The translations under genes were made by a program, and so were the position numbers. From Nitrospirota bacterium (GTDB lineage Bacteria > Nitrospirota > Thermodesulfovibrionia > Thermodesulfovibrionales > Dissulfurispiraceae), in NCBI GenBank assembly GCA_040752355.1, contig JBFMHE010000006.1:1-64000 (forward strand): a stretch of 64,000 bases of DNA, read 5' to 3'. This document shows, piece after piece, positions 45,664 to 55,938 of the stretch. Numbering within the stretch: position 1 is the stretch's first letter; the number at the start of each line of letters is the position of its first letter. The notes beneath the pieces are model-generated. The model saw nothing but the letters and a program-made list of their open reading frames with translations. It was not told the DNA's origin and did no database searches.

Positions 45664-46680
45664 TCAGGCGGTCGCCTGCTGCGGCTGCACGACGTTCTGG
45701 GGATACCCCTTGATGTACATCTGGATATTCTGGATCGTCGTCTCGAGGATGCGCTCGAGGGCCTCCTGGCTGTAAAAGGCGATGTGCGGGGTGAACACGA
45801 CGTTCTCCCTCCGCAGGAGGATATGGTCCCTGACCACTTTCCCGAGCGTCTCGACGGTGCTCTGGTCGTAGAGGATCTGCTCCTCCTCCTTGATCAGCTC
45901 TTCCCCTTCGAGCACGTCGAGGCCCGCGCCGCAGAGTATCTCTTTATCGAGTGCTTCGAGCAGCGCCTCGTTATCGACCACGCCTCCCCGCGCCGTATTG
46001 ATGAGGATAGCGCCCTTCTTTATCTGGTGGATCGACTCCTTGTTGATCAGGTGGTGGGTGCGCTTGTTGTAGGGGACATGCAGCGAGATGATGTCGGAAT
46101 TGCCGAGCAGCTCGTAGAGCCCCCTATAGCGGAACCCGAGGACCTCGGCGAGGATCTTGTTCGGCCGGGCATCATAGGCGAGGACCTGCATATCGAAGCC
46201 CCGGGCGATCCTGATGACGTTCAGGCCTATGCCGCCGGCGCCGACGACGCCGAGGGTCTTTCCCTTGAGGTCGAACCCCTTCAGGCCCTCTATGTCGAAG
46301 TCGTAGCGCAGCGTCTTCATGTACGCCTTGTGGATATTGCGCGAGATGGCGAGGATGAGCCCGAAGGTGTGCTCTGCCACGGTATTCTCGCCGTAAAAGG
46401 GAACGGTCGAGACCGGTATCTTCCTCTTCGCGCACTCTTTTACATCGATATGGTCGAACCCCGTCGACCTCGTCGCGATGAGCTTCAGCTTGGGGAGCTT
46501 TTTGATGACCTGCGCGTTCACCTTCGAGTAGATAAAGACCGAGAGGCACTCGATATGCTTCACCCGGTCCGCATTCTCCTCGGTAAGGGGGTCGGCATAG
46601 AACTCGAGCGCATGCTCCTTCAGCTTCTTTTTGAGATATTTCTTTTCCCAATCCTTGATCTCGAAGAAGGCGATTTTCAT
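45664..46680 (-). CDS. NAD-dependent D-2-hydroxyacid dehydrogenase (probable D-lactate dehydrogenase)
   Basis: 338 residues. NAD motif LGVVGAGGIGLNVIR, substrate-binding Arg in INTARGGVVDNEAL, Glu in LDVLEGEEL region and catalytic His in TPHIAFYS. The N-terminal domain (MKIAFFEIKDWEKKYLKKKL, ARSTGFDHIDV) matches the fermentative D-lactate dehydrogenase group more than glycerate or formate dehydrogenases, but 2-hydroxyacid specificity is not certain. ATG at 46680 is supported by family alignment and GGAG upstream. Confidence 0.88.
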   Translation of the reverse strand: MKIAFFEIKDWEKKYLKKKLKEHALEFYADPLTEENADRVKHIECLSVFIYSKVNAQVIKKLPKLKLIATRSTGFDHIDVKECAKRKIPVSTVPFYGENTVAEHTFGLILAISRNIHKAYMKTLRYDFDIEGLKGFDLKGKTLGVVGAGGIGLNVIRIARGFDMQVLAYDARPNKILAEVLGFRYRGLYELLGNSDIISLHVPYNKRTHHLINKESIHQIKKGAILINTARGGVVDNEALLEALDKEILCGAGLDVLEGEELIKEEEQILYDQSTVETLGKVVRDHILLRRENVVFTPHIAFYSQEALERILETTIQNIQMYIKGYPQNVVQPQQATA

Positions 46681-46820: not shown

Positions 46821-46974
46821 GCAGCCGGAGGGGGAGCGAGGCGAGGCATTTGGAGCGGCATGGGCAGCCCGAGCGGAGCCATGACGGCGGAGCGGGCTGC
46901 CCCGCCTCGGAGGACGGCGTGGATGCCGTCCGAGAATGAGCGAAAATGCCTCGCCTCGCTCCCCCTCCGGCTGC
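46821..46974. repeat. 154-bp inverted-repeat element with two internal hairpins
   Basis: Perfect 31-bp inverted arms at 46821-46851 and 46944-46974. Inside are a perfect 10-bp hairpin GGGCAGCCCG/CGGGCTGCCC (46862-46871, 46893-46902) and a 7-bp hairpin GGACGGC-gtggat-GCCGTCC (46912-46931) followed by GAGAATGAGCGA. The whole folds as a three-way junction. It fills most of the 307-bp gap 46681-46987. A related hairpin with a compensatory swap is at 55866-55885. Confidence 0.85.
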
Positions 46975-46987
46975 ACGCGCACGCACT

Positions 46988-48034
46988 TCAGAAGTGCAGG
47001 AAGCACTGCGGGTCCTCGCCGAGGAAATCGTCGCTGCCCCGCGCCTGCGCAGCGGCGTAGGCGATCGCCCTGCAGCCCCTGCAGACCGCCCACCTGCTGC
47101 ACCTGCCGCACTTCCCCTTGTACTTCCTCCTGTTCCTCAGCTGCTCCAGCACCGGCGAGACGGCCCAGAGCTCGCGGAGCGAATCCTCGCGCACGTTGCC
47201 GATGGGGATGGGCAGCCTCCTGCAAGGGGTAACCGTGCCGTCGGGCAGAATGGTCAGTCCCGACAACGCTGCAGCACACCCTCCGCAGGCAACGCTGCCG
47301 CCCTCACCCGTCTCTGCATCGAACGCCATCTGGGAGAATAAGGGGTCGCCCGATACCAGGGCGAGGTTGTCGGTCCCGAGGGACCGGAGAGCGGTGTACA
47401 GCCTCTTCACCCTCCCGGTATCGAGCATATCCGAGAGCAGGCCGGCGCCCCTCCCCGACGGGACGAGCCGCGAGAAGCCGAGCCGGTGGACGCCCATGGC
47501 CGAGGCGAGCGAGACGAGCCTCATGAACGAATCGGCATTCACCTCCGAAAGGGTGGTGTTGAGCGTCACCTCGATGCCTTCACCGAGGAGGTAGTGGACC
47601 CCCCTCAGGGCCGCGGCAAAACTGCCCTTGCCCCGGATACGCTCATGAACTGCTTCAGGTCCTTCGATGCTCACCTGGACGCCCTTCACGCCGAGCGCTG
47701 CGAGCATCCGCGCCCGCTCCATATCGATCATGGTGCCGTTCGAAAGGAGAAAGAGCTCGAATCCCCTGTCAGCGATCGTCTCGAGAACCTGCGCCAGATC
47801 GGGGCGGAGGAAGGGCTCTCCGCCGGTGAGGGTGAAGCTCGGCGCAATGCCGATGCCGTACGCCTCGGCCCAGTCCCCGAACATCTCGGCGGCTTCGCTC
47901 ACCACGTCCGTTATCTCGTGAAGGGACAGCTCATCCGAGCGCCCGCCGGTCTGGTAGCAATGCCTGCACGAGAGGTTGCACCGCTCGGTAAGGTGCCACT
48001 GGACTATGAAGTCGTGCTCGTTCCCCGTAGGCAT
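46988..48034 (-). CDS. Radical SAM/SPASM-domain protein
   Basis: 348 residues. The radical SAM cluster is C19, C23 and C26 (CNLSCRHC), with GGEPF and a TIM-barrel core; the C-terminal SPASM domain carries cysteines in CGGCAAALSG, TPCRRL and CGRCSRWAVCRGC for one or two further clusters. Members of this group modify peptides or proteins, act in heme/cofactor maturation (AhbD/NirJ-like) or make thioethers; the substrate cannot be named here. No precursor peptide is recognised next door, though a 34-residue small gene lies 196 bp upstream on the same strand. The start has no ribosome binding site and is preceded by a 53-bp palindrome. Confidence 0.9.
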   Translation of the reverse strand: MPTGNEHDFIVQWHLTERCNLSCRHCYQTGGRSDELSLHEITDVVSEAAEMFGDWAEAYGIGIAPSFTLTGGEPFLRPDLAQVLETIADRGFELFLLSNGTMIDMERARMLAALGVKGVQVSIEGPEAVHERIRGKGSFAAALRGVHYLLGEGIEVTLNTTLSEVNADSFMRLVSLASAMGVHRLGFSRLVPSGRGAGLLSDMLDTGRVKRLYTALRSLGTDNLALVSGDPLFSQMAFDAETGEGGSVACGGCAAALSGLTILPDGTVTPCRRLPIPIGNVREDSLRELWAVSPVLEQLRNRRKYKGKCGRCSRWAVCRGCRAIAYAAAQARGSDDFLGEDPQCFLHF

Positions 48035-48052
48035 AAGTAACCGTTCAAACTG

Positions 48053-48105
48053 TTCAAGGCCGTTCAAACCGTTTGAACCGTTCAAGCGGTTTGAACGGCC
48101 TTGAA
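48053..48105. promoter_or_regulatory. 53-bp GTTCAAAC palindrome upstream of the radical SAM gene
   Basis: Perfect 19-bp arms at 48053-48071 and 48087-48105 with the inner inverted repeat TTGAA-ccg-TTCAA between them. GTTCAA words recur about every 10 bp (48042, 48052, 48062, then inverted at 48071 and 48089), i.e. on one face of the helix. It ends 19 nt before the radical SAM start codon. Could be an operator array or an mRNA hairpin. Confidence 0.7.
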
Positions 48106-48193
48106 TCTCTTGAGCCCTGTATCCTGACGTGAAAGGCGGATACGCTGCCGCCTGTTTTCCCCGGCGCACACCGTACCCGCCCTCATGGTTCGT

Positions 48194-48210
48194 GTTGCCG
48201 GACCGGCAAC
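48194..48210. terminator. Small GTTGCCGG hairpin downstream of the 34-residue gene
   Basis: GTTGCCGG-a-CCGGCAAC, 20 nt after the stop codon at 48230 (minus strand). Stable stem but no T-tract on the minus strand, so its role as a terminator is uncertain. Confidence 0.35.
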
Positions 48211-48229
48211 TTTACGATTTTCAACCCTT

Positions 48230-48334
48230 TCACTTCTGGCATACCTTGCCAGGACTATCCTTCATCGCTGCCTTTACCCGGTTCCAGTGGTCCGCCTCTT
48301 TGGCAAGGGCGGCCTTGCTCAGCGTCTTCTTCAT
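48230..48334 (-). CDS. Small basic protein, 34 residues
   Basis: Not recognised. ATG at 48334 follows a full-length ribosome binding site (AAAGGAGGTGA). The peptide MKKTLSKAALAKEADHW... continues to a C-terminal KVCQK; it is rich in Lys and Ala, likely helical, with one Cys and one Trp. A consensus promoter (48389-48417) gives a leader of about 48 nt, and a hairpin follows the stop codon. It is too short for automatic gene calling but has every signal of a real gene. It lies 196 bp upstream of a radical SAM/SPASM gene on the same strand, so it could be that enzyme's substrate; the single Cys makes this only a guess. Confidence 0.75.
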   Translation of the reverse strand: MKKTLSKAALAKEADHWNRVKAAMKDSPGKVCQK

Positions 48335-48388
48335 CCTGCTTCACCTCCTTTCCCGACGGGCCCGCGCAACGCCCGTCCTTGTGATTGC

Positions 48389-48417
48389 ATCCTACTGCTT
48401 CATATCCGTGATGTCAA
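48389..48417 (-). promoter_or_regulatory. Promoter of the 34-residue small gene
   Basis: Minus strand: -35 TTGACA (48412-48417), exact 17-nt spacer, -10 TAGGAT (48389-48394). One of the best sigma-70 matches in the window. Confidence 0.7.
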
Positions 48418-48803
48418 TACGCATCCGGGAGACTCCGTACCGAAACACCGCGCAACAATCCCTGGTGCTCTCTGCGCCCTTACTTAACTTGTAGCAAAAA
48501 AGAGAGTGGACCGCAAGCGGCAGAGAGATGCTGCGGCCGAAGCGCTTGCACCAGTGGCACGGTTTCTTGACGCCCCAGGACATGCCTGATACACTTTGTA
48601 TTAGGACGGCACTGCATACAAGAGCAGCCCTGGACGCACGATCCTCGCCGCACCTCCTTTCCTGCACCCGCGCCTTTTTCCGTTCAAGCAGTCGCCATCG
48701 CTACGGTATGCGGTCATGCAACGAAACGCCTTCCCGCTCTTCTTCAGGGGAGAGGGGAAGAGACTCGAGAGAACCATATCCAGAAGCACAGAGGAGGCAG
48801 ACC
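48418..48803. other. Gene-free stretch with the promoter and leader of the alcohol dehydrogenase gene
   Basis: Apart from the promoter at 48567-48595 I see no gene here. The leader of about 200 nt (48602-48803) has no terminator-antiterminator pair or riboswitch that I recognise. Confidence 0.5.
48567..48595 (+). promoter_or_regulatory. Promoter of the zinc alcohol dehydrogenase gene
   Basis: -35 TTGACG (48567-48572), 17-nt spacer, -10 TACACT (48590-48595). The leader to the ATG at 48804 is about 200 nt. Confidence 0.5.
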
Positions 48804-50027
48804 ATGAAAGCAGTCGTGTTTCGCGGAATCGGCGACATCAGGATGGAGGAGGCGCCGGACCCGAAGATCGAGGCCCCCACCGACGCCGTTGTACGGCTCA
48901 CCACAACCGCGATCTGCGGGACGGACCTGCATATGGTGCGCGGCACCATGGCGGGCATGGAGCCCGGCACCATCCTCGGTCATGAGGGAGTCGGCATCGT
49001 CGAGCAGGTGGGCTCCGCGGTCCGTAATCTCAGGGAGGGCGACCGGGTGGTCATCCCCTCGACCATCGCGTGCGGATATTGCGCCTACTGCCGCGCCGGC
49101 TACTATGCGCAGTGCGACAACGCCAACCCCAACGGAAAACGGGCGGGAACCGCCTTTTTCGGCGGGCCAAAGATGTCCGGACCCTTTCACGGGCTCCAGG
49201 CCGAAAAGGCGCGTATCCCCTATGCGAACATCGGTCCGGTAAAACTGCCGGACGACGTGATCGACGATGCGGCGATCATGCTGTCCGATATCTTTCCGAC
49301 CGGCTATTTCGGCGCCGAGCTCGCCGAGATAAAGGATGGAGACAATGTGGCGGTCTTCGGCTGCGGTCCCGTAGGGCAGTTCGCGATCCTGAGCGCCTTT
49401 CTCCATAACGCAGGCCGGGTCATCGCCATCGACCGGGTCCCCTCGCGCCTCGATGCGGCAAGGGCGAAGGGCGCCGAGATAATCAACTTCGAGGAGGAAG
49501 ACCCCATTCAGGCCATTCTCGACCTGACCGGCGGCATCGGCGTCGACCGGGTCATCGATGCGGTGGGAGTAGAAGCGGTCCATCCGCACCACGGCCCGGC
49601 GGCGAAGGATGTCTGCACAACGCACAAAGAATTCAGGGAGGAGGTCAAGGAGGTCGCCCCGGAGATGCCGACGCCCGGGAAGCCCTGGCGGCCCGGCGAC
49701 GCTCCGTCGCAGGTGCTGCGGTGGGCGGTGGACGCCGTCGATAAGGCGGGCACGATCTCGGTCATCGGCGTCTATCCCCCGACCGTCGACTTCTATCCCT
49801 TCGGCAAGGCGATGAACAAAAACCTCACTATAAAGATGGGGAACTGCAACCACCGGAGATACATCCCCTTCCTGCTCGAGCTGGTGCGGAGCGGCGCCGT
49901 CGATCCCGAGACCGTGCTCTCGAACGTCGAGAGCCTCTCATCCGCGATCGACGCCTACAAGGCATTTGACGAGCGGCAGCCGGGATGGATCAAAGTGGCG
50001 CTGGTGCCTGAGGCGGCATTGGCGTAA
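48804..50027 (+). CDS. Zinc-dependent alcohol dehydrogenase (glutathione-independent formaldehyde dehydrogenase-like)
   Basis: 407 residues. The catalytic-zinc region is ICGTDLHMVRG and LGHEGVG, the structural-zinc cysteines are CGYCAYCRAGYYAQC, and the NAD-binding motif is VFGCGPVGQFA. A long insertion rich in charged residues (VHPHHGPAAKDVC...KPWRPGDAPSQ) matches the group that includes glutathione-independent formaldehyde dehydrogenases, which keep NAD tightly bound. The substrate (formaldehyde, threonine or another alcohol) is uncertain. GAGGAGG precedes the ATG. It is convergent with the aminotransferase gene across an inverted-repeat element. Confidence 0.9.
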   Translation: MKAVVFRGIGDIRMEEAPDPKIEAPTDAVVRLTTTAICGTDLHMVRGTMAGMEPGTILGHEGVGIVEQVGSAVRNLREGDRVVIPSTIACGYCAYCRAGYYAQCDNANPNGKRAGTAFFGGPKMSGPFHGLQAEKARIPYANIGPVKLPDDVIDDAAIMLSDIFPTGYFGAELAEIKDGDNVAVFGCGPVGQFAILSAFLHNAGRVIAIDRVPSRLDAARAKGAEIINFEEEDPIQAILDLTGGIGVDRVIDAVGVEAVHPHHGPAAKDVCTTHKEFREEVKEVAPEMPTPGKPWRPGDAPSQVLRWAVDAVDKAGTISVIGVYPPTVDFYPFGKAMNKNLTIKMGNCNHRRYIPFLLELVRSGAVDPETVLSNVESLSSAIDAYKAFDERQPGWIKVALVPEAALA

Positions 50028-50037
50028 TGAACTGCCC

Positions 50038-50146
50038 CGGGGAAGGGGCAGGGTATGGTATGCGACCGAGAATCGGGGTCCCCGAAGATCGTACGATCTT
50101 CGGGGTGACAGTTGAGTCGAGCGTACTATGCCCTGTCCCTTCCCCG
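50038..50146. terminator. Cruciform inverted-repeat element between convergent genes
   Basis: Outer 19-bp arms at 50038-50056 and 50128-50146 (two differences, both G-U compatible) enclose a perfect 26-bp palindrome CCCCGAAGATCGT/ACGATCTTCGGGG at 50080-50105. It may act as a bidirectional terminator; there is no T-tract. Confidence 0.6.
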
Positions 50147-50169
50147 TCCACGCACTGAGCTGACAATTC

Positions 50170-51348
50170 CTAGATGAGCGTTTTCAGCACCTCGGCCAGC
50201 CTCTTTATGCCGGTCACGATCGTCTCTTCATCCACGCTCGAGTAGTTCAGCCGCAGGGTATTCACGTCTTTCCTGTTCACGTAAAAGGGATCGCCCGGCA
50301 CAAAGGCGACCTTGTGCTCGATAGCCCTCTTGAAGACCTCCATTGCCGAAAGCGCTTCCGGCAGGGCTCCCCAGAGAAACATCCCTCCCTCGGGCTTCGT
50401 GTAGGTCACCCCGGCAGGGAAATAATCCTGCATCGCCGAGACCATGGCATCCCGCTGCCTTCCATAGGCCTTGCTGATCAGCTCGATATGCGCATCGATG
50501 TCGTTGTCTTTCAGGTACCGGAGGATCGCCCGCTGCCCGAAGTAGTTGGTATGGAGGTCGGAAGCCTGTTTCGCGATGATCAGCTTCTCCATAACCTCAT
50601 CTCCGGCCACGATCCAGCCTATGCGGAACGACGGCGCAACGATCTTCGAAAAGGAGCCGAGCAGCACGGTACTGCGCGGCATGAGCTCGTAGAACGACGG
50701 TCTCTCCGCTCCCCGGAAACGCAGCTCGCCGTAGGGGTCGTCCTCGACCAGCATGGTCTGCTTCCCCTCGAAGAGGCGGGCGACGCTCCTGCGATTCTCC
50801 TCGGAGTAGCTTATTCCCGAGGGGTTCTGGAAGTTCGGCACGCAGTAGAACAGCTTTATCCGGGAGCCGTTCAACGCCTGCTGCAGTGCGGCGAGGTCGA
50901 TCCCGTTCTCGTCCACCGGGACCGGATGGAAGGTCGACTTGTAAATGGAGAAGGCCTGAATCGCGCCCAAATATCCCGGCTCTTCGATAGCAACGTCGTC
51001 CCCCTCATTGAGAAAGGTCTTCCCGAGCAGATCGAGCCCCTGCTGCGACCCGGTGGTGATCAGGATATGGTCCGGATGAATCGTGAGCCCTTTCTTCTCC
51101 TTGTACCTGTCGGCAATCCACTGCCGCAGCTCCCTGTCCCCCTCCGAGGAGCTGTACTGCAATACGTCCTTGCCGCATTCGTCGAAGAGCCTGTTGGTCG
51201 CGGCCTTCATCTCCTCCACGGGGAAGAGGTTCCTGTTCGGCAACCCTCCCGCAAAAGAGATGATCGACTCATCCACCGCCACCTTCAGGATCTCCCTGAT
51301 GAATGACCGCGGGACATCCGACATCCTGTCTGAAAAAATGGTTCCCAT
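50170..51348 (-). CDS. PLP-dependent aminotransferase (2-aminoadipate/aromatic type)
   Basis: 392 residues. The PLP-binding Lys is in GSFSKIVAPSFRIGW; ITTGSQQGLDLLGKTFL, EEPGYLGAIQAF, VPNFQNPSGISYS and VEDDPYGELRF are typical of the fold-type I group containing 2-aminoadipate (LysN) and MocR-like enzymes. No N-terminal GntR DNA-binding domain is present, so it is an enzyme and not a MocR regulator. ATG 51348 follows AGGGAG. An 8-bp tandem repeat lies directly upstream of the ribosome binding site. Confidence 0.92.
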   Translation of the reverse strand: MGTIFSDRMSDVPRSFIREILKVAVDESIISFAGGLPNRNLFPVEEMKAATNRLFDECGKDVLQYSSSEGDRELRQWIADRYKEKKGLTIHPDHILITTGSQQGLDLLGKTFLNEGDDVAIEEPGYLGAIQAFSIYKSTFHPVPVDENGIDLAALQQALNGSRIKLFYCVPNFQNPSGISYSEENRRSVARLFEGKQTMLVEDDPYGELRFRGAERPSFYELMPRSTVLLGSFSKIVAPSFRIGWIVAGDEVMEKLIIAKQASDLHTNYFGQRAILRYLKDNDIDAHIELISKAYGRQRDAMVSAMQDYFPAGVTYTKPEGGMFLWGALPEALSAMEVFKRAIEHKVAFVPGDPFYVNRKDVNTLRLNYSSVDEETIVTGIKRLAEVLKTLI

Positions 51349-51361
51349 GCGCTCCCTCTCT

Positions 51362-51393
51362 CCTGATCGCCTGATCGCCTGATCGCCTGATCG
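51362..51393. repeat. Four tandem CCTGATCG units in the aminotransferase leader
   Basis: Four exact copies of an 8-bp unit, directly upstream of the ribosome binding site of the aminotransferase gene (minus strand). Such arrays are prone to slippage. Confidence 0.85.
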
Positions 51394-51565
51394 ATGGTAG
51401 TAGTATAGCAGGTTCTCCCGGCATGCCTGTTGGCACGGGTATGGAGAGGCCCTCTCCCTCCATACAAACGCCGGGAGATCAAGCACCTTCACCTTGATAA
51501 TTTCTTTTTTAACGTGTTAGCCTTTCAATAGTCCTCTGCAACCTGTTAAAGGAGCTATCCTGTTC

Positions 51566-52687
51566 GTGAAGAGACGCGTAATCTTCACCCTCATCGGCCT
51601 GGTCATGCTCGTCGCCGTTCTGGTCGCTGTCAAGGCCATGCAGATCGGTGCGATGATCGACCAGGGCAAGAAGTTCGTCCCGCCCGCAGAGGCGGTCACC
51701 TCCGCAGCGGTAACCGCCGATTCGTGGGAGGCCTCCCTCACCGCGGTCGGCACGCTCAATGCGGTGCAGGGGGTCACCGTGGCCGCCGAAGTGCCGGGCA
51801 AAGTGGTCCGGATATCCTTCGAGGCGGGCACGCCGGTGAGGAAGGGCGATATCCTGATCCGCCAGGACACCTCCTCCGAAGAAGCCCAGCTCCCCGGCGC
51901 CGTTGCACAGGCCGAGCTGGCCCGGGCAAACCTCGAAAGGGCGCAGCTGCTGCTGACCAAGGAGTATATCTCCCGCGCCGACTTCGATAGTGCCGTAGCG
52001 AATGCGGCGCAGGCAAAGGCGCAGGTCGAAAACCTCAGGGTCGCCATCGCTAAAAAGACGATCAGTGCCCCGTTCAGCGGGCAGCTCGGCATCCGTCTGG
52101 TCAACGTAGGGCAGATCCTCCGGGAAGGAGACCCTGTCGTCACCCTGCAGTCGCTCGACCCGATCTATGTCGACTTCACCCTTCCCCAGCAGCAGGTTCC
52201 GCAGCTCCGCCTCGGGCTCCCTGTGCGGGTGACGAGCGACGCCCTGCCCGGTGTGATGGTCGAAGGACGTATCACTGCAATGAACCCGAACGTCGATGCC
52301 GAAACCCGCACCATCAAGGCACAGGCAACGGTGGCCAACCGTGCCGGGCAGCTTCGCCCCGGCATGTTCGTTACGGTCTCGGTCGGACTGCCGGCCAGGC
52401 AGAAGGTGTTGACAATCCCTGCTACCGCGGTCCTCTATGCTCCATACGGCGACTCGGTCTTCGTGATCGAGGCACAGAAGGACGGAAAGGGAGGGAGCGT
52501 AGCGCGCCAGCAGTTCGTACGGCTGGGAGAGAAGCGCGGAGACTTCGTGGCGGTCACGAGCGGGCTCAAGGAGGGGGAGACGGTCGTAAGCACAGGGGTA
52601 TTCAAGCTGCGCAACGGCCAGCCGGTTGCGGTCGACAACAAGCTCGCGCCCTCCTTTCAGCAGCAGCCCGCTCCGGAGAACAACTGA
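51566..52687 (+). CDS. RND efflux membrane-fusion (periplasmic adaptor) protein
   Basis: 373 residues with an N-terminal signal anchor (LIGLVMLVAVLVAVKA), barrel-sandwich domain (VAAEVPGKVVRISFEAGTPVRKGD), alpha-hairpin (about 115-165), and beta-barrel/membrane-proximal domains (LRPGMFVTVSV, IPATAVLY). It links the RND pump to an outer-membrane channel. GTG start with AAAGGAG 11 nt upstream. It is followed 37 bp later by the pump; no outer-membrane factor or TetR-type regulator is in the window, so TolC is probably shared. Confidence 0.95.
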   Translation: MKRRVIFTLIGLVMLVAVLVAVKAMQIGAMIDQGKKFVPPAEAVTSAAVTADSWEASLTAVGTLNAVQGVTVAAEVPGKVVRISFEAGTPVRKGDILIRQDTSSEEAQLPGAVAQAELARANLERAQLLLTKEYISRADFDSAVANAAQAKAQVENLRVAIAKKTISAPFSGQLGIRLVNVGQILREGDPVVTLQSLDPIYVDFTLPQQQVPQLRLGLPVRVTSDALPGVMVEGRITAMNPNVDAETRTIKAQATVANRAGQLRPGMFVTVSVGLPARQKVLTIPATAVLYAPYGDSVFVIEAQKDGKGGSVARQQFVRLGEKRGDFVAVTSGLKEGETVVSTGVFKLRNGQPVAVDNKLAPSFQQQPAPENN

Positions 52688-52724
52688 CCGGTGCTGCCGA
52701 GATTATTCATAAAGTGATCCGTCC

Positions 52725-55700
52725 ATGAAGATTACCGACCTCTTCATCCGCCGCCCGGTGCTCGCCCTCGTGGTCAACCTGCTCATCATCATCGCCGGCC
52801 TCCAGGCGATCCGCGCGCTCAATGTACGCCAGTACCCCCAGACCGAGAATGCGGCGGTGACCGTAACCACCGTCTATGTCGGCGCCAGCGCCGAGCTGGT
52901 GCGCGGCTTCGTCACCACGCCGCTCGAGCGGGCTATCGCTGCAGCGGACGGCATCGAGTACATGGAGTCGCAGAGCAGCCTCGGGCTCTCGACCATCAAA
53001 GTGCGCCTCAAGCTCAACTACGACGCGACCAAGGCGCTCGCCGAGATCAGCTCCAAAGTGGACCAGGTGCGCCGCGACCTCCCTCCCGAGGCCGAAGTCC
53101 CGGTGATCAACATCGAATCTGCCGACAGCCAGTTCGCCTCGGCGTATCTCAGTTTCTCCTCGGGCATGCTGCAGCAGAACGAGATCACCGAGTACCTGGT
53201 GCGCATCGTGCAGCCCCGCCTCTCCGCCATAGAAGGGGTGCAGCGGGCCGATATCCTCGGCGCCCGCACCTTCGCCATGCGCATCTGGCTCAAGCCCGAG
53301 CGGATGGCCGCCCTCAATATCAGCCCCGCGCAGGTGCGGAGCGCGCTGGCTGCGAACAACTTCCTCGCCGCCCTCGGCCAGAGCAAGGGCGCCTTCATTC
53401 AAGTCAACCTGACCGCCAATACCAACCTGACCACCATCGACGAGTTCAAGCGGCTCGCGGTGCGCGAGCAGAACGGCGCCATCGTGCGGCTCGGGGAGAT
53501 CGCCGACATCGTGCTGGGAGCCGAGGACTATAATGCCGAGGTCCGCTTCTCGGGCCAGACAGCGGTCTTCATCGGGGTATGGCCGCTCCCCAATGCCAAC
53601 TCCGTCGATGTCATCAAGCGGGTGCGGACCGAGATGGCGGCGATTCAACGCGACCTGCCGAGCGGCTTGCAGGCGCGCGTCGCCTATGACGCCACCGACT
53701 ACATCACCAGCGCCATCCGCGAAGTTTTGAAGACCCTCGGCGACACGCTCTTGATCGTCGTCGTCGTCATCTTCCTCTTCCTCGGCTCGTTCCGCTCGGT
53801 CTTCATCCCGGTCGTGGCGATCCCGGTCTCGCTCATCGGCGCGGTCTTCCTCATGCAGGCCTTCGGCTTCACCGTGAACCTGCTCACGCTCCTGGCGATC
53901 GTGCTCTCGGTCGGCCTCGTGGTCGACGACGCCATCGTCGTCGTCGAGAATGTCGAGCGCCACCTGAGGAAGGGGAGGTCCGCTTTCGAGGCAGCCCTGC
54001 TCGGCGCGCGCGAGCTGGTGGGGCCGATCATCGCCATGACCATCACCCTGGCGGCGGTCTATCTGCCGATCGGCCTGCAGGGAGGGCTCACCGGCTCGCT
54101 CTTCCGCGAGTTCGCCTTTACCCTTGCCGGCGCGGTCACGATCTCGGGCGTCGTAGCCCTCACCCTGTCGCCGGTCATGTCTGCCAGACTGCTCAAGCCA
54201 GGCCTCGAGGAGCACGGCCTCGCCGGCCGCATCTCCCGCGATTTCGAGCGGCTGAGGAACGCCTACGGCCGCTTGCTCGACATGACCCTGAGGGCTCGGC
54301 CTGCCGTGTATATGGTCTGGGGCGTAGTAAGCCTGCTCACCGTACCGCTGTTCACCATGTCAGCCAGGGAGCTGGCGCCGACCGAGGACCAGGGGGTCAT
54401 CTTCGGCATCATGGACGCTGCGGCCAACTCGACCCTCGACCAGAACAGCCGCTATGCCGCGGCGGTCAATCAGGCGTTCCTGAGCGTTCCCGAGACCGAC
54501 TTCACCTTCCAGATCACCTTTCCCAATTCAGGCTTCGGCGGCATGGTGGTCAAGCCGTGGGACGAGCGGGAGCGGAACATCTTCCGTATCCTCCCGGACG
54601 TTCAACAGAAGCTCCAGAAGATACCCGGCATCCAGATATTCCCGGTCACGCCCCCGGCGCTCCCGGGAGGAGGGCAGTTCCCGGTCGAGTTCATTATCGC
54701 CTCTACGGCGGAGACCGGGCAGATCCTCGAGCTCGCCCGCCAGGTGCAGCTGAAGGCGATACAGAGCGGCATCTTCTATTTTCCTCCGCTGATCGATGTC
54801 AAGATCGACCAGCCCCAGTCGGAGTTCGTCATCGACCGCGACAAGGTGGCGGCCCTGGGGCTGAGCCTCGAGCAGGTCGGCGCCGACATGGGGATCATGG
54901 TGGGCGGCGATTTCGTCAACCGTTTCGACATCTCGGGCCGCAGCTACAAAGTCATCCCGCAGATCCAGCGGAGCGGCCGCCTCAACCCGGAACAGCTCCA
55001 GAATGTCCATGTCACCGGTCCCAACGGCAAGCTGATCCCCCTCGGCACGATCGCCACGCTGCGCGATTCGGTCGTGCCCCGTTCGCTCAACCGCTTCCAG
55101 CAGCTCAATGCGGTCAAGATCAGCGGCGTAGCGGTGCGGCCTCTCGACGAGGCCCTCCGCTTCCTCGAGGACGAAGCTGCGAAGGTCCTGCCGAAGGGGT
55201 ATGTCCTCGACTACACCGGCGAGTCGCGCCAGCTGCGTACTGAAGGGAACAAGTTCCTTCCCGCCTTCGCCCTTGCCGTGATCCTGATATTCCTCGTGCT
55301 CGCTGCACAGTTCAACAGCTTCCGCGACCCCTTCGTTATACTGGCCGGCTCGGTGCCGCTCGCGATGTTCGGCGCGCTGCTCTTCACCTTCCTGAAGATG
55401 CCGGACCCCAATGTCCCCTTCTGGACCCACGGCTGGACCACCACGCTCAACATCTATTCGCAGGTGGGGCTCGTGACCCTGGTCGGGCTGGTATCCAAGA
55501 ACGGCATCCTGATCGTCGAGTTCGCCAACCAGCTGCAGCTCCAGGGCCGGACCAAGCTGGAGGCGGTGCGCGAGGCTGCCCTGACCCGTCTGCGGCCGAT
55601 CCTGATGACGAGCGCCGCTACCATCGCCGGCCACTTCCCGCTCACCCTCGTCACCGGGCCCGGCGCCGCTGCCCGCAACTCGATCGGTCTCGTGCTGGTG

Positions 55701-55832
55701 GGCGGCATGTTCGTCGGCACCCTCTTCACCCTCTTCGTCGTCCCCGCGATCTACATGCTCATAGCCCGCGATCATGCGAGGGACCGCGAGCGCGACGCCC
55801 TTGTCGCGCCGGACACCTCATCCCCTCTGTAA
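52725..55832 (+). CDS. RND efflux pump (HAE1 family)
   Basis: 1035-residue proton-driven transporter. Twelve transmembrane helices, two large periplasmic loops, and the proton-relay motif LSVGLVVDDAIVVVENV in TM4 with the DD pair. The N-terminus FIRRPVLALVVNLLIIIAGL and AARNSIGLVLVGGMFVGTL are typical of AcrB/MexF-like pumps for hydrophobic drugs. Length is normal and no truncation is seen. It forms a two-gene operon with the adaptor upstream. Substrate range cannot be predicted. Confidence 0.96.
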   Translation: MKITDLFIRRPVLALVVNLLIIIAGLQAIRALNVRQYPQTENAAVTVTTVYVGASAELVRGFVTTPLERAIAAADGIEYMESQSSLGLSTIKVRLKLNYDATKALAEISSKVDQVRRDLPPEAEVPVINIESADSQFASAYLSFSSGMLQQNEITEYLVRIVQPRLSAIEGVQRADILGARTFAMRIWLKPERMAALNISPAQVRSALAANNFLAALGQSKGAFIQVNLTANTNLTTIDEFKRLAVREQNGAIVRLGEIADIVLGAEDYNAEVRFSGQTAVFIGVWPLPNANSVDVIKRVRTEMAAIQRDLPSGLQARVAYDATDYITSAIREVLKTLGDTLLIVVVVIFLFLGSFRSVFIPVVAIPVSLIGAVFLMQAFGFTVNLLTLLAIVLSVGLVVDDAIVVVENVERHLRKGRSAFEAALLGARELVGPIIAMTITLAAVYLPIGLQGGLTGSLFREFAFTLAGAVTISGVVALTLSPVMSARLLKPGLEEHGLAGRISRDFERLRNAYGRLLDMTLRARPAVYMVWGVVSLLTVPLFTMSARELAPTEDQGVIFGIMDAAANSTLDQNSRYAAAVNQAFLSVPETDFTFQITFPNSGFGGMVVKPWDERERNIFRILPDVQQKLQKIPGIQIFPVTPPALPGGGQFPVEFIIASTAETGQILELARQVQLKAIQSGIFYFPPLIDVKIDQPQSEFVIDRDKVAALGLSLEQVGADMGIMVGGDFVNRFDISGRSYKVIPQIQRSGRLNPEQLQNVHVTGPNGKLIPLGTIATLRDSVVPRSLNRFQQLNAVKISGVAVRPLDEALRFLEDEAAKVLPKGYVLDYTGESRQLRTEGNKFLPAFALAVILIFLVLAAQFNSFRDPFVILAGSVPLAMFGALLFTFLKMPDPNVPFWTHGWTTTLNIYSQVGLVTLVGLVSKNGILIVEFANQLQLQGRTKLEAVREAALTRLRPILMTSAATIAGHFPLTLVTGPGAAARNSIGLVLVGGMFVGTLFTLFVVPAIYMLIARDHARDRERDALVAPDTSSPL

Positions 55833-55839
55833 CAGTCTC

Positions 55840-55938
55840 TTTCAGCAGGCAGAAAAACATTCGGAGGAGGGCCTGGATGCCCTCCGAGAATGAGCGAGTA
55901 CCCCCTGCCCTGCCGGCTCCCCCACGCGCCTGCTGAAA
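55840..55938. repeat. Inverted-repeat element related to the one at 46821
   Basis: Outer 11-bp arms TTTCAGCAGGC/GCCTGCTGAAA at 55840-55850 and 55928-55938. Inside is GGAGGGC-ctggat-GCCCTCC (55866-55885) followed by GAGAATGAGCGA, the same hairpin and tail as at 46912-46943, with one C-G pair swapped for G-C. It lies between the convergent RND pump and transglycosylase genes. Confidence 0.75.

Follow-up and report, generated by a model that had tools for sequence, protein, structure and literature searches.

A dispersed MITE-like repeat with a conserved, most likely RNA-forming three-way junction in Nitrospirota and other bacterial phyla

The element and its surroundings

The window, a 64,000-nucleotide stretch of contig JBFMHE010000006.1 from a Nitrospirota bacterium, carries eight clustered tRNA genes on both strands at its left edge (216-1791). 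Further in, a complete palindromic element, here called copy A, occupies the intergenic region flanked by genes for a 2-hydroxyacid dehydrogenase (45667-46680, - strand) and a radical-SAM/SPASM protein (46991-48169, - strand), and is antisense to both. A related segment, copy B, directly follows an AcrB-type transporter gene (52725-55832), ahead of a convergent lytic transglycosylase gene. The parts of the two copies are listed below.

46821-46974, copy A, the complete element, with a long closing stem P1, hairpins P2 and P3 and conserved single-stranded motifs
46821-46851, + strand, 5′ arm of closing stem P1, 31 bp perfect, with covariation in P1
46853-46858, + strand, junction J1/2 (GAGCGG), its GG forming the base of P2
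46857-46906, + strand, P2 arm, with a GGC/GCC base and a 10-bp stem (46862-46871 with 46893-46902)
46878-46880/46886-46888, + strand, inner hairpin P2b, with loop ATGAC here and usually nGGAT
46904-46911, + strand, junction J2/3, conserved GCCTCGGA, CCTCGGA in most phyla
46912-46931, + strand, hairpin P3, GGACGGC-GTGGAT-GCCGTCC, with GGAT in the loop
46932-46943, + strand, junction J3/1, conserved tail GAGAATGAGCGA, of which GAGAATGA is kept across phyla
46944-46974, + strand, 3′ arm of closing stem P1, 31 bp perfect
46834-46959, + strand, match of copy A to covariance model R1, 144.3 bits, E 1.7e-27
55843-55913, + strand, copy B, truncated relic with P3 and tail only, 32.8 bits, E 0.0025
55866-55885, + strand, P3 of copy B, GGAGGGC-CTGGAT-GCCCTCC, with the tail at 55886-55897
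55840-55938, no strand assigned, 11-bp palindrome round copy B (55840-55850 / 55928-55938), TTTCAGCAGGC / GCCTGCTGAAA

The hairpin and tail that a sequence-only reading had reported as common to 46912-46943 and 55866-55897 are indeed present at both places, and the replacement of a C-G pair by a G-C pair between the two P3 stems (GGACGGC/GCCGTCC and GGAGGGC/GCCCTCC) is real. The P3-tail motif, allowing up to three mismatches, occurs twice in the window, against 0.05 occurrences expected from shuffles. The perfect 31-bp arms and the second, 10-bp hairpin of copy A were likewise found as described, and the three-way junction proposed from them agrees with the predicted P1-P2-P3 fold (-137 kcal/mol, z = -11). 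The description as two copies holds for copy A, which is complete, but not for copy B, which is a mere fragment; with neither P2 nor the long closing stem, and with the weakest of the 49 covariance-model matches in its genome, copy B is a truncated relic. The palindrome enclosing it is unrelated to the element.

A multicopy family with exchangeable modules

A pattern search of the genome to which the window belongs turned up 26 exact matches and some ten close ones, and covariance model R1, built from 14 of its copies, retrieved 49 from the 3.57 Mb. The search for further copies with such a model, set beforehand as a test of the sequence-only reading, was therefore positive, and it extended to relatives: of 80 genomes from this family and order, 39 contain the element, and in several of these 20-44 or more copies were scored. 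The order of parts is P1 (16-31 bp), GG-P2-CC with P2b, CCTCGGA, P3 with its GGAT loop, GAGAATGA and P1′, so that the three-way-junction module P1-P2-P3 measures about 100 nt, to which a long P1 of variable length is added. The GG is the only part of the J1/2 GAGCGG that is kept across phyla. Like MITEs, the copies are small, devoid of ORFs, bounded by long inverted arms and numerous (49).

Since every P1 family in this genome occurs with several P2 and P3 types in free combination, arms and hairpins are swapped among copies as modules. A P2 variant that contains an additional TCGGTACGACTCGATTCCGA segment, present in many own-genome copies (L002, L015, L023, L048, L049, L052, L053 and L057), is joined to differing P1 and P3 types, which also points to module exchange. 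Copies that are otherwise alike have unrelated outer arms. The P1 arms are perfect yet specific to each copy, hinting that re-matching by palindrome correction or transposition chemistry acts besides selection. A second hairpin module, of GGGGTCCCCGAAGATCGAAGATCTTTGGGGTGGCA type, sits inside some elements, in J3/1, the P3 loop or the P2 loop depending on the genome (L256, L258 and L250, on own-genome contigs C5, C12 and C19, and L169, L142, L050 and L055), as if one repeat targeted the hairpins of another. Two own-genome copies (L050 and L055, contigs C4 and C20) are enlarged versions of about 200 nt that have several extra hairpins and the same ends.

The elements are intergenic and their orientation relative to neighbouring genes is random. 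This bears on the proposal, made from the sequence of the window, that they may be transcription terminators, here taken as intrinsic ones. Stable GC-rich hairpins close to gene ends would suit that role, but TTTT within 12 nt after P1 was found in only 2.7% of 187 copies, and a terminator would be expected to show neither random orientation nor a branched core on stems of 16-31 bp. The terminator proposal is refuted by the rarity of the T-run, and we give it almost no credence.

Distribution among phyla

A motif that ignores the stems, CCTCGGAGN{4,9}GGATGN{5,8}GAGAATGA, was searched in 84,980 species genomes and gave at least 120 stretches from seven or more phyla. Carriers among the matches listed belong to Nitrospirota, Desulfobacterota (including Desulfospira joergensenii DSM 10085 and Desulfurivibrio sp. 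AMeS2, both in culture), Latescibacterota, Gemmatimonadota, Spirochaetes, Omnitrophota, Nitrospinota and others; since most carriers are MAGs, single phylum labels need care. Two matches, from Aminicenantes and Verrucomicrobia, look like chance matches to coding sequence, and nearly all others listed also fit the covariance model. None of 2.9 million viral contigs carried the element, and blastn found it in no plasmid or phage. In one relative (G012), a copy and a tmRNA gene lie 43 bases apart (L105, 1501-1626 and 1669-2013).

No Rfam family matched the element in its own genome or in other phyla, although tRNA and tmRNA were recovered by the same scans, and relaxed thresholds brought nothing but chance miRNA-type matches to the palindrome. 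Neither the sequence nor a matching family was found in the literature. The element would add to Rfam an RNA family that it does not yet contain. A stand-alone omega RNA of an IscB/HEARO system, which would likewise be a palindrome-flanked structured RNA with many ORF-less copies, is ruled out by model searches and has next to no probability: RF02033 did not match at E values up to 10, RRXRR (PF14239) did not match either, and no Rfam match appeared in other phyla.

Mobility and terminal sequences

Two sites of the element in genome G017 were compared with those of its congeners G026, G030 and G004, and at both the element is present or absent depending on the genome. At the first (intergenic, G017:C6:32140-32265), it is missing from G030 and G004, where the flanking genes nearly abut (..GGTGCAATGAAA..), and present in G026 (C43:25153-25278) in opposite orientation and with different outer arms, which reflects either inversion of the core or a hot spot that took up the element twice independently. 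At the second site, the element is missing from G026 and G004, and TCACTTA stands on both sides of the G017 insert and once in G004.

Exact target duplications (TSDs) of 8-10 bp beside a TIR were seen in 7 of 188 copies and in none of 542 swapped controls; most of the seven are 8-9 bp long, their TIRs differ, and two look less convincing. Most copies show no TSD or TIR, and copy A has no visible TSD and no TIR beyond its own palindrome. The TIR sequences are CARTASTGTCCGRTA, GTAACTATTCAGC, GGGTGCACC, CCAAATCCAGCGATAA and, in the own genome and L101/L199, GAGCTTCTAACAAAATGA. TIR types were present on both arms in 28 cases, against none for the reversed motifs. Miniature palindromes with the same TIRs and no core were found as well (L006 1284-1333; L208 3629-3728 and 3862-3968). 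From the orthologous empty sites and the TSDs outside several unrelated TIRs we conclude that the element moves, in support of the suggestion that it is a mobile repeat, and the differing TIRs, the coreless TIR pairs and the free combination of P1, P2 and P3 indicate that the core is a separable module. Clustering of ORFs within 2.5 kb of elements revealed no recurring partner, just ABC ATPases, sensor kinases and ORFs overlapping the element.

One could also imagine a REP/RAYT-type repeat, in which a Y1 (HUH) transposase recognizes the GGAT hairpins in single-stranded DNA. The own genome encodes six Y1_Tnp genes, and hairpins with conserved flanking unpaired bases as well as strand specificity would agree with such a system. 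However, no copy lies near these genes, 11 of the 39 carriers lack Y1_Tnp (e.g. G022, with 33 copies and 98% completeness), and target duplications of 7-9 bp together with TIRs do not fit HUH single-strand transposition. With neither a GTAG-type tag nor a RAYT gene flanked by the repeat, we consider this origin improbable.

Conservation of the fold and strand bias

Among the copies of the own genome, 97.3% of cells are paired and 21 of 38 pairs show double changes; sliding the partner by 1-3 columns lowers pairing to 31-46%. Among 68 distinct copies drawn from relatives and from other phyla, both sides have changed in 36 of the 38 pairs, with 821 doubly changed cells and a covariation of 0.799, compared with 0.192 after shuffling and at most 0.128 after sliding. 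The copies differ massively, then, by double changes that keep their pairs, as the single exchange between copies A and B had suggested. The single-stranded parts, CCTCGGA, GAGAATGA and the GGAT loops, are conserved.

A palindrome acting solely as double-stranded DNA is expected to show G-U and A-C mispairs in equal numbers. Counting transition-type mispairs on the motif strand of the copies found by the stem-blind search gave 117 G-U and 28 A-C, and 36 genomes lean towards G-U versus 3 towards A-C (p = 4e-8). Selection on the fold is thus strand-specific, and the motif strand is the one that folds. Covariation above both shuffled and slid controls, combined with this G-U bias, is the behaviour of a structured RNA, and it lends weight to the earlier suggestion of an RNA. 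G-T pairs are tolerated in single-stranded DNA too, so the strand test alone is no proof of RNA; judged from sequence, the motif strand most likely folds as RNA.

An alternative would be that the hairpins matter as single-stranded DNA or as a cruciform, in recombination or replication, and that the paired changes result from quasi-palindrome template-switch correction rather than from selection on an RNA. The perfect but copy-specific P1 arms, the unrelated outer arms of similar copies and the opposite core orientation at one orthologous site would be compatible with this, and the G-U excess would fit selection on one strand of single-stranded DNA. Against it, P2 and P3 show covariation from one phylum to the next with loops and junctions left unaltered, and a bias on one strand is unexpected from correction of a double-stranded palindrome. 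We regard an element acting purely at the DNA level as unlikely, though worth keeping in mind.

GGA loops resemble the CsrA consensus known from SELEX work, and the element could conceivably be a CsrA-binding RNA, i.e. a sponge with two such hairpins. The loops of P3, for instance CAGGGATG and CATGGATG, and those of P2b, CATGGATG and CAGGGATG, are in line with this, and the own genome has CsrA. However, 14 of the 39 carriers lack CsrA, among them G063 (44 or more copies, 100% complete), G009 (28), G053 (15) and G043 (12), and some copies have no GGA in P3 (GGTCGCATCGACC). A sponge role is very doubtful; the existence of element-rich genomes without CsrA or Y1 transposases makes both it and a RAYT-driven REP unlikely in general.

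A model for the element

We favour the view that copy A belongs to a dispersed family of non-coding, non-autonomous MITE-like repeats with a conserved central RNA module, and think it probable. In such a repeat, the three-way-junction module P1-P2-P3 would form the centre of a palindromic unit, and cut-and-paste transposases from different families may act in trans to move its arms (TIR plus P1). The central module would be transcribed and function at the RNA level, its most likely mode of action being to bind a factor of the host or the transposon via the GGAU loop and the CCUCGGA / GAGAAUGA junctions, and would be under selection in its own right through these conserved loop and junction bases. 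Its effect as RNA might be to make intergenic insertions tolerable, or to give a stable small RNA. More tentatively, several unrelated miniature-transposon lineages may have adopted the RNA family as a shared cofactor, for example one that recruits a conserved host protein protecting, processing or silencing the insertion, or aiding transposition; we consider this a possibility of modest probability.

In bacterial miniature transposons, selection is usually taken to preserve the ends alone. Here, the inside of a MITE-like unit would be a folded RNA that is conserved between phyla and common to elements with different ends. Besides supplying a candidate RNA family new to Rfam, the repeat allows the question of whether functional RNA is carried by MITEs to be put to the test in cultured Desulfobacterota.

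Comparison with known systems

The element shares GGA-bearing hairpin loops with CsrA sponges of the CsrB/RsmZ type, but it consists of dispersed repeats and is present without CsrA. HEARO/OMEGA RNA (RF02033) is also a structured RNA within a mobile element, often in many copies, but neither sequence nor structure matches, and no IscB accompanies the element. REP and GTAG- and CGTC-tagged palindromes (PMC3733652) are, like it, palindromic repeats between genes in which a hairpin adjoins a conserved unpaired motif, and the CGTC class resembles it further in having no known transposase (PMC3733652). However, the element has no GTAG or CGTC tag and, unlike REP palindromes, is a larger three-way junction with a 16-31 bp closing stem, TIRs and TSDs. 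Also close are bacterial MITEs such as Chunjie of Geobacter uraniireducens, with copies of 178-235 bp, and QMITE2 of Coxiella (reviewed in PMC10969869; QMITE2 in PMC5896051), the likeness to Chunjie being drawn from its description alone. Like these, the element is short and non-coding, has dozens of intergenic copies and palindromic arms, and shows target duplications of about 7-9 bp in some copies; unlike them, it pairs a single RNA core, whose loops and junctions are fixed, with unrelated TIRs of at least four or five kinds in several phyla.
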